A stretch of DNA of 32,115 nt. It comes from an uncultured Parvularculaceae bacterium (GTDB lineage Bacteria > Pseudomonadota > Alphaproteobacteria > Caulobacterales > Parvularculaceae). A program made the translations under genes and the position numbers. Below the pieces are notes generated by a model, which was given only the letters and a program-made list of their open reading frames with translations, had not been told where the DNA came from and searched no databases. Of this stretch, positions 9,798 through 18,784 are shown in pieces. Positions within the stretch are counted from its first letter, which is position 1. Every line of letters begins with the position of its first letter. The stretch covers positions 1-32,115 of the forward strand of contig CALLVA010000167.1 in NCBI GenBank assembly GCA_938010655.1, read 5' to 3'.

Positions 9798-10376
9798 ATG
9801 TCTCACTTTTCTGGTTCTGATAGCCCTGTCATGCACGGCACCACCATTCTTGCCGTGCGCCGAAATGGCCAAGTGGCTGTTGGCGGCGATGGACAAGTCT
9901 CCCTTGGCCAAACTGTGATGAAAGGCGATGCGCGAAAAGTCCGCCGCATTGGAGGGGGCAATGTAATCACAGGGTTTGCTGGCGCCACGGCAGATGCTTT
10001 TACCCTTCTTGAACGTCTGGAAAGCAAACTCGAGCAATATCCCACGCAATTGACCAGAGCCTGCGTCGACCTTGCTAAAGACTGGCGCACCGACAGATAT
10101 TTGCGCCGCTTGGAAGCTATGATGATTGTGGCGGATAAAGATGTGACGCTCATGCTCTCTGGCATAGGGGATGTGTTTGAACCAGAGCAGCTTGATGATA
10201 CGAAAAAAGGCGGTGTCATCGCCATTGGCTCTGGTGGGAATTATGCGCAATCAGCAGCCTTAGCGCTTTATGAAAACACAGATCTTACGGCAGAAGAGAT
10301 CGTCAAAAAAGCAATGGCCATCGCCGGAAAAATTTGCGTTTATACAAATGACAGCCTGACCCTTGAGGTCATTTAG
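9798..10376 (+). CDS. hslV: ATP-dependent protease peptidase subunit HslV
   Basis: A 192-residue proteasome-beta-like threonine peptidase that forms the core of the HslUV (ClpQY) protease in the cytosol. The catalytic N-terminal threonine of the mature enzyme is the first Thr of [13 protein letters not shown] (residue 15), so a 14-residue propeptide must be removed. [14 protein letters not shown] and the glycine-rich [16 protein letters not shown] are conserved. The start at 9798 has TAGGAG 6-11 bases upstream. The ATPase gene hslU is not adjacent but lies 2.3 kb away beyond two minus-strand glycosyltransferase genes. The stop overlaps the stop of the convergent glycosyltransferase gene by 4 bases. 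Confidence 0.96.
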
Positions 10377-11284
10377 TCCCGCTCTTTGCCTATACCACTT
10401 CCCACAATCATGGAGTGATATAAGCCTGCCATCCAATATAGACCGCCAATTGCAAAAAGAGGACTGATCAGGAAAGTCTTCAATTTTTGAGGCGTTGTTT
10501 GATACCGCATATGGCGCGCGAGAATACGAATGATTTTGAACCCCGAAACAAAGGGGAGCAATAAGAATAAAATGATCTTTTTGATTTTTGATTTATGGGC
10601 ATACCGAATAAAATATAAGTTTTTGCCATTGATATAAATTTTACGCATGACTTTTTTCATAGGCGAGTCTTGAATTTGAAGACCCAGCAAATCTGGCGTG
10701 AACATTAATTTTTCACCGCTGCGCAAAAGCCGCTCTGTCAATTCCGTATCTTGCATGCGCGGAATGTCTTTGAAGCCACCACAGCCAATAAATGTTTCCC
10801 GGTCAAATGCCATCAAGGCTGAACTCAAATTCGACCGTGGAAAAACAGGGCGTCCTTTTTGGGATTCGTGGTTGAAAAAATAATGTTCAAGATATGATGC
10901 TGTTGTGGAACTTACCTCTTCATTGAGCTCAAGGGCTCCCCCAAAAATTCTGTTTCCTTGCTGATAAAACTGCCACGCAGCCTCAAGCGCCTTGGGTGCC
11001 AGAACAACATCTGCATCGACAAATATCATCAAATCCCCAGATGCAATTTGAGCCCCTATATTCCGCCCTTTGCCGGGGTTAAACCGCGTTGCTTCATGGT
11101 GAAACTTAACAAATGAAAAATCAGCACAAATATTTTGAACAGCATCACTTTCCGAACAATCCACAACAATCACTTCATATAAAAGTGTCGTCTGTTGCTC
11201 TGCTAAGGCTTTCAGCGTATTTGGCAAGTTTTCTTGTGCATTATAGCTTGGTATGATTATCGAAATATTCATGACTGGAAACAT
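10373..11284 (-). CDS. Family 2 glycosyltransferase
   Basis: A 303-residue GT-A fold glycosyltransferase. The N-terminal [13 protein letters not shown] begins the nucleotide-sugar-binding fold, and the metal-binding DXD is in [13 protein letters not shown] conserved [16 protein letters not shown] segment (about residues 180-195) matches the acceptor/catalytic ED region of GT2 enzymes. Two hydrophobic segments near the C-terminus ([15 protein letters not shown] and [17 protein letters not shown]) suggest membrane association. It probably adds a sugar to a surface polysaccharide or lipid-linked glycan; the acceptor is unknown. Start 11284 is uncertain because no good ribosome binding site is seen; ATG 11272 (MNISIII) fits the fold equally well. 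It lies 19 bases downstream of the GT4 gene in the same operon. The DNA at about 10560-10680 is visibly AT-richer than the flanking hsl genes. Confidence 0.88.
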
Positions 11285-11303
11285 ACTTTAATTTGTAAAC
11301 GGA

Positions 11304-12491
11304 TTATGACTGAAAGATTTTTAGGCGCTGTTGAACAACTTTTTCGATATTAAATTGATCATCTATCAAGGCCCGTGCCTTGTCTATTTTAGCTTTGTCA
11401 GCCTTGAAAGCTTGAAGCGCGTCTGCCAAAGCTGTTGCATCTTTTTCTGGTACCAAAACGCCTGTATCATCCCGCACCAACTCAGGTATGCCTGAATGTG
11501 CCGTGCCGATGACCGGCACACCACTTGCCATCGCTTCCATCAACACAACAGGTATCCCCTCCATTTCGCCGCTTTCGCTCGTCACTGAGGGGACGACAAC
11601 AACATCTGCCGCAAGCATTTTTGATTGTACTTCTGACATCGGCGCATGGCCCGGCAATTTTACGATGTCTTGCATTTTCAAGGTTGAGATTTGGGCTTTG
11701 ACATCATCATGTAATGGGCCAGAGCCTAAGATTTCCACGTCAAGCTCTACGCCGCGCTGCGCCAAAATATCTGCTGCATCGACGAGATACTTAAATCCCT
11801 TCTTCTCAACAAAACGTCCTACGGCCAATACTTTCAGCGGATTGTGCGGTGGCACAAACTCCCGTTTGATAAATTGATCCATCACCATGCCACATCGGAC
11901 AACCTTGGATTTATCCTGACACGGATGAACGTCACTATAATAATCAATGTTAAACTGAGAAATCATCAGCAAATTTTTTGCTTCGCGTAATTTTGAGGCC
12001 AAGGCATCCACATGGGGCAGATCGCGCTCTCCAGCGGAATGCACTGTGACGCTATAAGGCGCGTTGCTTAATAATGATGCAAACATGGCGATGGAGCTTG
12101 AAACGTTCAAAAAATGCGCATGTATGTGAGTTACGTCCTCACGCTCAAACTGAGATGCAAAGCGTGCAGCGACCATTAAGTGATACAAGACTTTTAAACG
12201 ACGTTTCAAAGAGCCATTTTTTGAGGAAAGGGCAATCCCAATACCTTTGAAATATTTCCCAGGCTTCGTGATCAGATATTTCACATTCGCCAAAAATGTT
12301 GCCACGGGGGCAATGGGATAAAGATAAGTTGTCTCGTCTACCAAGTCTTTTGCGTCATCCGCGCAAGCCGTATCTTGGCGCACCCCAAAAAGCGACACGC
12401 CGTGACCTTGCTTGCGCAATTCCCGAATTTCCCGTCGGATAAAAGTATGGGAAGGTGTCCCAAAACAGGTCGTGAGGTAAACAAGCTTCAT
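11304..12491 (-). CDS. Family 4 glycosyltransferase
   Basis: A 395-residue GT-B fold retaining glycosyltransferase. The N-terminal domain starts LVYLTTCFGTPSHTFIRREI, a pattern seen in colanic-acid/exopolysaccharide GT4 enzymes, with the HIHAHFLN segment near residue 125. The C-terminal donor-binding domain has KVLAVGRFVEKKGFKYLVDA and the EX7E motif in the stretch SESGEMEGIPVVLMEAMASG (about residues 300-320). It likely transfers a hexose to a growing surface glycan at the cytoplasmic face; donor and acceptor are unknown. It is the first gene of a two-gene operon with the GT2 gene, transcribed away from hslU, and a good sigma70-like promoter lies 30 bases upstream of the start. Confidence 0.9.
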   Translation of the reverse strand: MKLVYLTTCFGTPSHTFIRREIRELRKQGHGVSLFGVRQDTACADDAKDLVDETTYLYPIAPVATFLANVKYLITKPGKYFKGIGIALSSKNGSLKRRLKVLYHLMVAARFASQFEREDVTHIHAHFLNVSSSIAMFASLLSNAPYSVTVHSAGERDLPHVDALASKLREAKNLLMISQFNIDYYSDVHPCQDKSKVVRCGMVMDQFIKREFVPPHNPLKVLAVGRFVEKKGFKYLVDAADILAQRGVELDVEILGSGPLHDDVKAQISTLKMQDIVKLPGHAPMSEVQSKMLAADVVVVPSVTSESGEMEGIPVVLMEAMASGVPVIGTAHSGIPELVRDDTGVLVPEKDATALADALQAFKADKAKIDKARALIDDQFNIEKVVQQRLKIFQS

Positions 12492-12676: not shown

Positions 12677-13987
12677 ATGACTTCTTTCTCCCCGCGCGAA
12701 ATTGTTTCAGAGCTAGACCGGTTTATTATTGGCCAAAACAAAGCCAAGCGGGCCGTGGCTGTGGCGCTGCGCAACAGGTGGCGGCGGCGGCAACTTCAAG
12801 GCAGTTTGAAAGAAGAAGTCACTCCGAAAAATATTCTGATGATTGGGCCGACAGGCGTTGGCAAAACAGAAATATCCCGCCGCTTGGCCAAGCTGGCCGG
12901 GTCGCCTTTTATTAAAGTAGAAGCAACGAAATTCACTGAAGTAGGCTATGTGGGTCGGGATGTTGAATCGATCATTCGAGATTTGATGGAAATTTCTATC
13001 GGCTTAATGCGCGACAAAAAGCGCGAAGAGGTGAAAACCAGAGCTCATGGGGCCGCTGAAGATCGGGTGCTGGAAGCATTGGTTGGCGAAAACGCCAGCG
13101 AAGCTACTCGGCAAACCTTCCGCAAAAAACTCCGCGAAGGAGACCTGGACGACAGAGAAATTGAAATAGATCTGCCAGATACAGGCAAAGGCGGCATGCC
13201 CACTTTTGATGTTCCCGGAATGCCCGGTGCTCAAATGGGCATGATCAATATTTCTGACATGATGGGCAAAGCCTTTGGCACGCCGCGCAAGACCAAAAAA
13301 GTTCGAGTAAAAGACGCCTATGAACCTTTGCTCGCAGAAGAAGGCGACAAGCTTGTTGATGATGAAAGCTTAACTCAAGAGGCTTTGGAAGCGGTTGAAA
13401 ATGATGGCATCGTCTTTTTGGATGAAATTGACAAAGTATGCCGGTCTTCTGAAAAATCTGGCGCGGATGTTTCCCGCGAAGGCGTGCAACGAGATCTATT
13501 GCCCTTAATTGAAGGGTCCACCGTCCCCACAAAGTATGGCCCGGTTAAAACTGATCATATTCTATTTATTGCGTCTGGCGCATTCCACATTGCCAAGCCT
13601 GCGGACCTGCTACCGGAATTGCAGGGTCGTTTGCCCATTCGTGTGGAGCTTGAGGCCCTGACAAAAGAAGACTTTAAGCGCATCCTGACGGAGACTGAAG
13701 CGGCCCTCATCAAGCAATATGTGGCATTGATGGCTACAGAAGGGCTGACTTTGGATTTTACGGATGGCGGGATCGACGCCATTGCTGACCTTGCAGCACA
13801 GGTGAACGTTTCTGTCGAAAATATTGGGGCCAGACGCCTTGCCACAATTATGGAAAAAGTGCTTGAGGAAATTTCCTTTGATGCGGCGGATAAATCCGGC
13901 GAAACCATCGAAGTGACGAGAGAATTTGTCGAAACCAATATTGGCGATCTGGCTCGAAATACTGATTTATCAAAATTTATCCTTTAA
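12677..13987 (+). CDS. hslU: HslUV protease ATPase subunit HslU
   Basis: A 436-residue AAA+ unfoldase that feeds substrates to HslV. The N-terminal [35 protein letters not shown] is diagnostic. Walker A is GPTGVGKT (residues 57-64), followed by the pore motif in [15 protein letters not shown]. Walker B is VFLDEIDK, with Asp249 and Glu250. The sensor-2 region [17 protein letters not shown] and the C-terminal NTDLSKFIL tail, which inserts into HslV, are present. Length is normal for the family. AAAGG lies 6-10 bases upstream of the start. Because hslV is separated by two opposite-strand genes, hslU must use its own promoter in 12492-12676, so subunit balance cannot rely on one transcript. Confidence 0.96.
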
Positions 13988-14059: not shown

Positions 14060-14090
14060 CGTTAAGAGGTGGTAAACTATTTCCTTAACG
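14060..14090. repeat. Inverted repeat / candidate operator upstream of the prephenate-dehydratase-like gene
   Basis: CGTTAAG (14060-14066) and CTTAACG (14084-14090) are a perfect 7-base inverted repeat with a 17-base spacer, 66 bases upstream of the next start codon. The left arm also begins TTAA-N7-TAAA (14062-14076 region), one mismatch short in the second half-site from a CtrA box. A DNA-binding site for a dimeric or cell-cycle regulator is possible; this is inference. Confidence 0.4.
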
Positions 14091-14155: not shown

Positions 14156-15520
14156 ATGGCAGATGGATTTGATAGAAACACGAATAGAGGCAAAGGCTTA
14201 ATCGCTTTTACTCATGAAGAGCACGGGCTTGGCGCAAAAGCGGCACAGAACTATTCAAATTCGACCGCCCGCAGCACACCGCGCTCGACACCTGCTGATA
14301 CTTTTACCTCTTTGATCAGCAAACATGTTGATACGGCCATTGTGCCGATTGAAAACGACATTGGCGGATATAACACGAACACCCTGCTTTCCCTGATTGA
14401 TTTCAAGGGATATGAAATCAAAAAAGATGTTTCGAGTCAGGACCGTTATGTTCTGGCTGTGCCTTATGCTCAGGTCATGGAATTATCGGAATCTTCTTTT
14501 TCATCTTCATTCAGCAAAAATCTAACCGTTGGTAATTTGCCAAGAGATATGCAAACGCAAGAAGCTTTGCGCCGTCGCATCAGCTCTGTTTTTGTTTCAT
14601 CTGATGCGCAAAGCCGATGTGGTCCTGCCCTTGATGGTCTTCGGGCTGAAGGCATGGACATTAAACCTATCCCAAATGGAGCAGACCCATATCGCTTTGG
14701 CGTGAAGACGGGTTTTGATAGCCTCGATAGAGATCGTATTATTGAAACACATCACAGCGATGCGACAGGCGATAATATGCGCGTTAGCAAGATGCGTGGC
14801 TCCAATTATACAAAAAGCTTAAACGCTGTTTTGCTCCCCTTTGATCAAGCGACGCTTGGTATGCGGAGTTTGAATGCTGAAGAAACGTCAAAACATGTTA
14901 GTTTTGGAGAGAGCGATTACATCATCATTGAGGATCGCCTTGAGGGTGAACAGGATATCAATACACGTTTCCTCGCTGTTGGCCGCGCCAAACCAAATCA
15001 GATTAGTTTGGGCCGCAAAATTGCTTATACGCTTTTTGGCTGGACCCCTTATTGGCGGCCTGAGGTAGCGGAATATACAAAACGTTCTGGCCCGCTTCAC
15101 AAAGCTTTTAATGATCGCAAAGGAGACGAAAAAAATATTCGTGTTCTTATTAAAGCAAGTTCTGCTGGGCGCAATGTTACGGATATCTCGGCATTGTCTC
15201 GCGAAATAGCGAAGCAAGGATTGAATTATTCAATCGTACCAATTGCAGATCGTCCTGATGTACCAACTGTTTTTGAGGTTGAACTTAAGTCTCGCAAACA
15301 AATTGATTATTTAGGGGATGTTTTGGAGTTTGCCTTCCGGGATCACCACGGTTGGAAAGCAAAAGTTTTGGGCATGTATCCAACAAGCTCCGCCATGATC
15401 GGCAACAAGCCGGCAAAAGTGCATAATCCATTTATCCGACCTATTTATATCACCATTGCAACAGGGGCGATCATTTATGCTGTTGTTGAATATGTTCGTT
15501 TTAAAATGAATGGTGGCTAA
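14156..15520 (+). CDS. Diverged prephenate dehydratase/ACT-like protein with C-terminal membrane helix
   Basis: A 454-residue protein that reads as a strongly diverged prephenate dehydratase. LIAFTHEEHGLGAKAAQNY (15-33) aligns by eye with the family's GPEGTFSEEAA start. AIVPIENDIGG (61-71) matches the VPIENSxxG motif with Asp for Ser. VSSDAQSRCGPAL recalls the SHPQALAQC region, and DINTRFLAVG keeps the family's catalytic TRF triplet (Thr270-Phe272). Residues about 328-411 resemble the PheA-type ACT domain and end in VLGMYPTS, close to the typical VLGSYP. The GALV and ESRP phenylalanine-binding motifs are replaced by AGRN and ADRP. A hydrophobic helix (430-447) with a short basic tail anchors the C-terminus, which is unusual for this soluble enzyme. 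It may be catalytically altered or regulatory. The start has only a weak ribosome binding site. It stands alone between hslU and a bidirectional terminator. Confidence 0.65.
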   Translation: MADGFDRNTNRGKGLIAFTHEEHGLGAKAAQNYSNSTARSTPRSTPADTFTSLISKHVDTAIVPIENDIGGYNTNTLLSLIDFKGYEIKKDVSSQDRYVLAVPYAQVMELSESSFSSSFSKNLTVGNLPRDMQTQEALRRRISSVFVSSDAQSRCGPALDGLRAEGMDIKPIPNGADPYRFGVKTGFDSLDRDRIIETHHSDATGDNMRVSKMRGSNYTKSLNAVLLPFDQATLGMRSLNAEETSKHVSFGESDYIIIEDRLEGEQDINTRFLAVGRAKPNQISLGRKIAYTLFGWTPYWRPEVAEYTKRSGPLHKAFNDRKGDEKNIRVLIKASSAGRNVTDISALSREIAKQGLNYSIVPIADRPDVPTVFEVELKSRKQIDYLGDVLEFAFRDHHGWKAKVLGMYPTSSAMIGNKPAKVHNPFIRPIYITIATGAIIYAVVEYVRFKMNGG

Positions 15521-15578: not shown

Positions 15579-16184
15579 TCATTTTTTTAGAAAAACGTAA
15601 AAAGCCCCCGCGCCGCCATGGCGTTGATGGGCTTGTGAGACGCTGGCAATATGATGACTTAAGGGGCCATCAACCCAATCGAGAAAACGGCGTCGCAGGA
15701 CACCCCGCGGCGCTTCATGCAGGGGCAAATTTCGCGCTTCAGGAGGGCCTTTGCCCGTAATGACCAACACGCATTTATTTTGATGGATTTTCGCTTGGTT
15801 TAAAAAAAGCTGGAGCCGTTGAAAAGCTTGCTCTTGCGTTAATCCATGCAGGTCTAATGTAGCATCAATATTGCGTCGCCCTCTTGAGACACGCTTCGCT
15901 TGACGAGGGTCCCCTGCCCCAACAAGGCTATGCTGCAAAGGAGACAGAGACGCTTTTACATCGTTCAGTGTCAGCAAGGGTTTAGAATATTGTTTGCGTG
16001 GGGGTTTTGAGACCAATGTATGAGGCGCATTTTGATCTTCGCAGGCTGTCAGATGCGCATGGCTTGAAGGGTCGCCTTGTGTAATAGGTTCTACATCTTT
16101 AGTGACTTTTTGCCAGAGAGACGTTTCTTCACTCGACAGAATACGCTTAGACCTTGCCTTAGAAGTTTTCTGTTTCTTTGGCAT
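15579..16184 (-). CDS. Smr-domain protein (MutS2/Smr family)
   Basis: About 201 residues. The N-terminal half is lysine/serine-rich and low in hydrophobicity, probably disordered. The C-terminal half is an Smr domain: ATLDLHGLTQEQAFQRLQLFL with the LDxHG motif, VLVITGKG, and HQRHGGAGAFYVFL with the terminal GGxGAxYV motif. Smr domains have nicking endonuclease or RNA-cleaving activity in several proteins; the role of the alphaproteobacterial stand-alone form is not established. ATG 16184 is preferred, while an in-frame GTG at 16196 would start two bases after the mltA stop. It is the last gene of the minus-strand operon Tim44-like / mltA / smr. Confidence 0.88.
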   Translation of the reverse strand: MPKKQKTSKARSKRILSSEETSLWQKVTKDVEPITQGDPSSHAHLTACEDQNAPHTLVSKPPRKQYSKPLLTLNDVKASLSPLQHSLVGAGDPRQAKRVSRGRRNIDATLDLHGLTQEQAFQRLQLFLNQAKIHQNKCVLVITGKGPPEARNLPLHEAPRGVLRRRFLDWVDGPLSHHIASVSQAHQRHGGAGAFYVFLKK

Positions 16185-16198
16185 TTTGTTGACCACGG

Positions 16199-18373: not shown

Positions 18374-18784
18374 ATGGCCTATTTCCTATTACTGCTCATC
18401 GCCCTGCCCTTTGCCGAAATTTATGTCTTGCTAAAGGCTGGTGGGGCTTTTGGATTGTTGCCCGTTATGCTCGCGACAGTGTTCACAGCTATTCTCGGTG
18501 GTTTTATTATCAAAATTCAAGGGATGAACGCAGTATCCCAATTGCGGCATGATATGCAGGATGCGCGGGTGCCGGTAGAACCTGTGGCAGATGGCGTATT
18601 TCTGCTGATTTGCGCCCCGCTCCTGATGACCCCCGGTTTTATTACTGATTTTATTGGCTTCTCCCTTCTCGTTCCCCCAATCAGGCATTTCTTTGCGAAA
18701 AGATTTCTGAGATGGCTCAAAGGCAAAGTGGCCACTGGCGAAGCACGGATGACCATCATCAGGCCCAATGATCCCCCAAGATGA
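18374..18784 (+). CDS. fxsA: FxsA family membrane protein
   Basis: A 136-residue inner-membrane protein. The opening LLIALPFAEIYVLLKAGGAFGLLPVMLATVFTAILGGF gives two membrane helices with the family's conserved E-I-Y turn. The segment DGVFLLICAPLLMTPGFITDFIGFSLLVPPIR is the highly conserved central FxsA motif. FxsA was named in E. coli for suppression of F-plasmid exclusion of phage T7; its cellular role is unclear. No strong ribosome binding site is seen before 18374. It is divergent from the Tim44-like gene and upstream of secB by 99 bases, an order shared with other alphaproteobacteria. Confidence 0.92.
   Translation: MAYFLLLLIALPFAEIYVLLKAGGAFGLLPVMLATVFTAILGGFIIKIQGMNAVSQLRHDMQDARVPVEPVADGVFLLICAPLLMTPGFITDFIGFSLLVPPIRHFFAKRFLRWLKGKVATGEARMTIIRPNDPPR

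Follow-up and report, generated by a model that had tools for sequence, protein, structure and literature searches.

The window, the whole 32,115-nucleotide stretch of DNA that was analysed, corresponds to contig C167 in a genome assembly of 2.19 Mb and 78.5% completeness, and it carries, in order, hslV, two glycosyltransferase genes, hslU, the gene studied here (gene X), convergent smr, mltA and tim44 genes, and then fxsA and secB. Gene X (14156..15520, plus strand) is an ATG-initiated frame of 454 amino acids in the open-reading-frame listing of the window and encodes a diverged prephenate dehydratase (PDT)/ACT-like protein with a predicted C-terminal membrane anchor. Its same-strand neighbour upstream is hslU (12677..13987, plus strand; Pfam AAA_2), its convergent neighbour downstream is an smr-domain gene (15579..16196, minus strand; Pfam Smr), and hslV (9798..10376, plus strand; Pfam Proteasome) lies further upstream; all three belong to the conserved context by synteny. 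The two glycosyltransferase genes (10373-12491, minus strand) separate hslV from hslU in the window, and the spacing between hslV and hslU varies widely in other Parvularculaceae too. The fxsA gene (18374-18784) is found between tim44 and secB in most Parvularculaceae and was not detected there in the outgroups L150 and L153. A preliminary description of this DNA had taken the X frame for a genuine gene, which is borne out by its PF00800 match, the selection acting on it and its homologues across Parvularculaceae, and the PIEN, TRF and VLGMYP stretches that it listed lie at residues 64-67, 270-272 and 404-409 of the translation. Nearly all homologues begin with MADG (14156-14167), often extended to MADGA or MADGS, for no evident reason; the copies in genus g3 mostly carry ANQ in its place.

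A Pfam scan with the prephenate dehydratase profile PF00800 gave a significant match to X, limited to residues 27-100 (E 8.6e-7; 29.4 bits against a curated cut-off of 25.2 bits), and 27 of 30 homologues, each scanned singly, matched the same profile at E<=0.1. When a profile of the X family was compared with PDB sequences, PDTs ranked first (6vh5 with E 8.5e-4, 3mwb and 2qmx), and hhalign of the family against canonical PDTs of the same order returned a probability of 97.6 and an E of 3.6e-12. X is a member of the prephenate dehydratase family, PF00800, and a strongly diverged one, as first described: it scored 26.3 bits against 219 and 12.3 bits against 359 for the NCBIfam prephenate dehydratase equivalog cut-offs. 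The second, canonical pheA for which a search had been proposed was found elsewhere in the same genome (G000:C128:4880-5407, E 1.9e-55), and a canonical pheA separate from X was present in all 56 examined genomes that are at least 90% complete. Judged by its sequence, X is not an ordinary pheA, because it falls far under the equivalog cut-offs, a separate canonical pheA is present and the canonical motifs are lost. With phmmer, X also matched the SasA kinase weakly (E 0.34), which we attribute to chance.

AlphaFold2 models of the window protein (mean pLDDT 70.8, pTM 0.58) and of the Amphiplicatus orthologue (mean pLDDT 77.4, pTM 0.71), both of moderate confidence and built from window and related-locus sequences only, predict a PDT fold for X. 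The top 12-13 Foldseek matches of both models were PDTs or PDT-related (TMt 0.63-0.76), with 3luy, labelled putative chorismate mutase, counted as PDT-like from its score only, and structures of GqqA (7am0) were among the best. The structure prediction suggested in the preliminary description thus returned a PDT-type fold twice. The predicted two-lobed, periplasmic-binding-protein-type domain covers residues about 14-278 (14195..14989, plus strand) and is supported by hhalign and Foldseek.

An ACT-like domain is predicted to follow at residues 327-410 (15134..15385, plus strand), where the window model has a beta-alpha-beta-beta-alpha-beta topology that recurs at residues 371-479 of the Amphiplicatus model. 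No Pfam ACT profile matched X and hhalign gave a probability of only 0.5, so that the ACT-like end noted earlier holds as predicted topology and goes undetected by any sequence profile. In this segment RP is partly kept, but neither ESRP nor GALV, the ACT phenylalanine-binding signature, is present; the canonical columns are replaced, as the preliminary description had reported.

Alignment of canonical PDTs with the matching columns of the X alignment showed that the canonical motifs ENS, SHxxAxxQC, DTAGAA and TRF are not conserved across the X family. Among the canonical motif positions, only the PIEN proline, the cysteine at the QC position and the TRF phenylalanine are invariant. The PIEN motif itself (14345..14356, plus strand) keeps its proline in all members while EN varies, and the EN(S) position reads END, QND, EDD, ESD, YDD, YNP or others, in line with the altered ENS serine described before. 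SHxxALxQC is replaced by ASxDAxxRC or AGPEAARRC, and DTAGAA by xPYR or EPHR, the latter column pairing, taken from the profile alignment, being the least certain. The TRF triplet (14963..14971, plus strand) is retained in the window copy and in most Marinicaulis-type copies; it is not a family trait, as relatives carry THF, ERF, SRF or TSF, some genera having E or S for the threonine and others H or S for the arginine. We take this threonine, from E. coli PDT studies, to be among the catalytic residues of canonical PDT. In 30 X sequences, E21, Q135, C155, R180, R194, S211, F272 and R329 are invariant. The identity of the catalytic PDT residues used here is drawn in part from PMC8192741.

The predicted C-terminal membrane helix, placed at residues 430-447 when the sequence was first described, was recovered as a model helix at residues 427-451 (15434..15508, plus strand), and hydropathy located a hydrophobic 19-mer at residues 426-444 with a Kyte-Doolittle (KD) mean of 1.74. 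A C-terminal hydrophobic segment of KD at least 1.4 occurs in 58 of 64 X orthologue sequences, a set drawn from two collections that includes near-duplicates, versus none of 21 canonical PDTs. Five of the six orthologues under this threshold score 1.21-1.39, and one (L030) has no such segment. At L030 and L087, the g6 orthologue stops before the transmembrane segment, through either loss or truncation. No N-terminal hydrophobic segment was found in any of the 64 sequences, and most Marinicaulis-type relatives carry two extra hydrophobic segments ahead of the ACT-like domain. The window protein lacks a signal peptide, and at most about ten residues follow its anchor; the simplest predicted topology is therefore that of a C-tail-anchored protein whose body lies in the cytoplasm.

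Of 60 Parvularculaceae genomes, 54 have a homologue of X, and 239 genomes from the rest of the order have none. Relatives carry the names Marinicaulis, Parvularcula, Amphiplicatus and Parvularculaceae, which places the window in Parvularculaceae. These relatives were found with an alignment of better conserved relatives; a profile-free scan of genome contigs with the window protein as single sequence found nothing. Outside Parvularculaceae, samples of the class (385 genomes) and the phylum (399 genomes) yielded only three short, weak matches, the two from the class sample falling within reading frames as long as canonical PDTs (279 and 313 amino acids), and a plasmid search gave no match. Six family genomes are without X: G008, G018 and G630 are each less than 90% complete, the G031 assembly also has no hslU, and G034 and G516 (genus g3) are near-complete. 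In these last two genomes the absences look like real losses, and in G034 the 10 kb that follow hslU contain no X. Two genomes of genus g2 (Marinicaulis-type) have, in addition to the main copy, a second, shorter X-like frame of 431-441 amino acids (G548:C7:7105-8238 and G664:C137:3756-4877).

The neighbourhood survey proposed for X showed that the hslU-X-smr slot is kept in most of the family, with the order hslV-hslU-X holding across most Parvularculaceae. In the outgroups L150 and L153, from another family of the order, the arrangement is hslVU-smr-mltA-tim44-secB with hslU adjoining smr and no X between, an empty site in keeping with X having been inserted on the stem of the Parvularculaceae. 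The earlier statement that relatives usually have no gene in this slot holds for those two genomes, and fails within Parvularculaceae, where X is nearly universal there. In genus g3, X lies about 0.7-6 kb from hslU and faces an HlyIII gene rather than smr, and no functional partner emerged among the neighbour genes checked there. In seven close pairs, dN/dS of X (Nei-Gojobori) was 0.02-0.15, with several dS values above 1 and therefore imprecise, versus 0.01-0.03 for hslU. X is clearly under purifying selection, predates the genera of Parvularculaceae and, far from being peculiar to one genome, is shared by almost the entire family.

Upstream of X, the element TTAAGAGGTGGTAAA (14062..14076, plus strand) matches TTAA-N7-TTAA, a CtrA-type box, at 7 of 8 positions and is conserved upstream of orthologues. 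A full 8/8 match was found in 25 of 46 upstream regions, many of them from one genus, and a match with one mismatch in 10 more, and a perfect box arose in 0.1% of shuffles. The box mostly lies 42-54 nt ahead of the start codon (94 nt in the window) and stays constant while most of the flanking upstream sequence varies; it is mostly missing in genus g3. No perfect box was found upstream of hslU, hslV, secB, fxsA, tim44, mltA or smr. In most regions the first TTAA follows a G, so that the complementary strand reads TTAA-N7-TTAAC, the consensus that CtrA ChIP-seq gave in Hyphomonas neptunium (PMC7200025). The window's genome has a ctrA whose product is 83% identical to a CtrA query from Caulobacter. 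CtrA control of X is plausible, and we infer rather than assert it because TTAA-N7-TTAA showed no genome-wide enrichment over its reversed form and no perfect site lies upstream of the ctrA genes examined. Alternatively, the box may belong to the core of the promoter.

Taken together, we consider it fairly probable that X is a tail-anchored, probably non-catalytic offshoot of PheA that binds a metabolite in the cytoplasm and serves as a regulator at the membrane, possibly in time with the cell cycle. The proposal of a repurposed or inactive homologue stands, with the catalytic motifs not conserved and a canonical pheA present alongside; prephenate and aromatic amino acids, the ligands it named, are candidates only. 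A PheA-type PDT would have been duplicated anciently, at or near the base of Parvularculaceae, and the duplicate would have taken up its place between hslU and smr. There it would have come to be held in the inner membrane by its C-terminal tail, with both domains, PDT-like and ACT-like, on the cytoplasmic side, and would have lost the PDT active site and the ACT phenylalanine-binding signature, and presumably its activity, while gaining invariant residues of its own. An open-closed movement is known for PDTs. In X, a small metabolite may bind the cleft between the PDT lobes, an ACT dimer or both, and such binding could drive the same movement of the lobes, which would be relayed at the membrane to some partner, making X a sensor or regulator and not a maker of phenylpyruvate. 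The CtrA-type box suggests that production of X may be timed to a cell-cycle or polarity programme.

Other readings of X were weighed against this one. X could still be a dehydratase: a PDT or arogenate dehydratase whose active site has been rebuilt and which, tethered to the membrane, makes phenylpyruvate or phenylalanine there. The PDT fold is intact in both models, TRF persists in most Marinicaulis-type copies, and the window copy keeps both PIEN and TRF, so that some dehydratase activity may survive in it; however, the replacement of ENS, SHxxAxxQC and DTAGAA, the change of the TRF threonine to E or S in other genera and the retention of canonical pheA in the same genomes make this unlikely. 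If the PDT scaffold of X served some other enzymatic chemistry, the new invariant polar residues would be accounted for, and there is a precedent in GqqA of Komagataeibacter europaeus (PDB 7am0), a PDT homologue with acylase activity on acyl-homoserine lactones as well as PDT activity (PMC8192741) and one of the best fold matches. GqqA, however, is a PDT of canonical length (281 amino acids) that complements pheA and is not singled out by the fold match, and therefore X, more distant and carrying a membrane anchor, shares with it no more than any PDT would; we regard this reading as quite improbable.

The conserved hslV-hslU-X order would fit a partnership with the neighbouring HslUV protease, for instance as a membrane adaptor or substrate, but a conserved promoter element precedes X itself, hslVU is also present in genomes without X, and the drift of X away from hslU in genus g3 argues against an obligate link, leaving such a partnership very improbable. 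That X is merely a decaying, functionless pheA duplicate is scarcely credible: loss of the catalytic motifs and absence from the near-complete G034 and G516 would be expected of such a gene, but its retention across most genera of the family, its invariant residues, its conserved promoter and, above all, the low dN/dS contradict it.

PheA is known from textbooks as a soluble enzyme of biosynthesis. X resembles the PheA-type PDT-ACT proteins (PF00800; PDB 6vh5, 2qmx, 2qmw, 3mwb) in domain order, fold and PDT profile, and the window copy shares PIEN and TRF with them. It differs in its length of about 440-640 amino acids, with inserts within the PDT domain, versus about 280 for PheA (the contrast first drawn for the 454-residue window protein), in its unconserved catalytic and phenylalanine-binding motifs, in its C-terminal anchor and, in some relatives, in the two further hydrophobic segments ahead of the ACT-like domain. 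X is like C-tail-anchored proteins in having no N-terminal signal, one helix at the extreme C-terminus and a short tail; no PDT or ACT member of that class was found in the literature searched, nor any membrane-anchored PDT in open-licence papers. Caulobacter is a cell-cycle model, and KidO and GdhZ are metabolic enzymes with cell-cycle roles there. Its citrate synthase CitA is likewise described in PMC7083601 as acting on the cell cycle independently of catalysis. These proteins offer, within the same order as X, an analogy for an enzyme fold serving as regulator, and their folds are unrelated to that of X.

X represents a new variant, specific to one lineage, within a known family, and is defined by its alignment, the empty-site comparison and the promoter element, and genome annotation may take it for a second pheA; cultured strains of Marinicaulis and Amphiplicatus exist. 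A more specific version of the preferred reading is speculative and unlikely as it stands: a PheA pseudoenzyme, tethered to the membrane and present throughout the family, would sense a metabolite of the shikimate or aromatic branch, or another small anion, and pass this state to the cell-cycle or polarity programme run by CtrA in Parvularculaceae. If the regulator reading is true, relatives of Caulobacter would have duplicated an amino-acid enzyme, stripped the copy of its catalytic signature, given it a membrane anchor and maintained it by strong selection, a clear example of such an enzyme turned probable membrane regulator.
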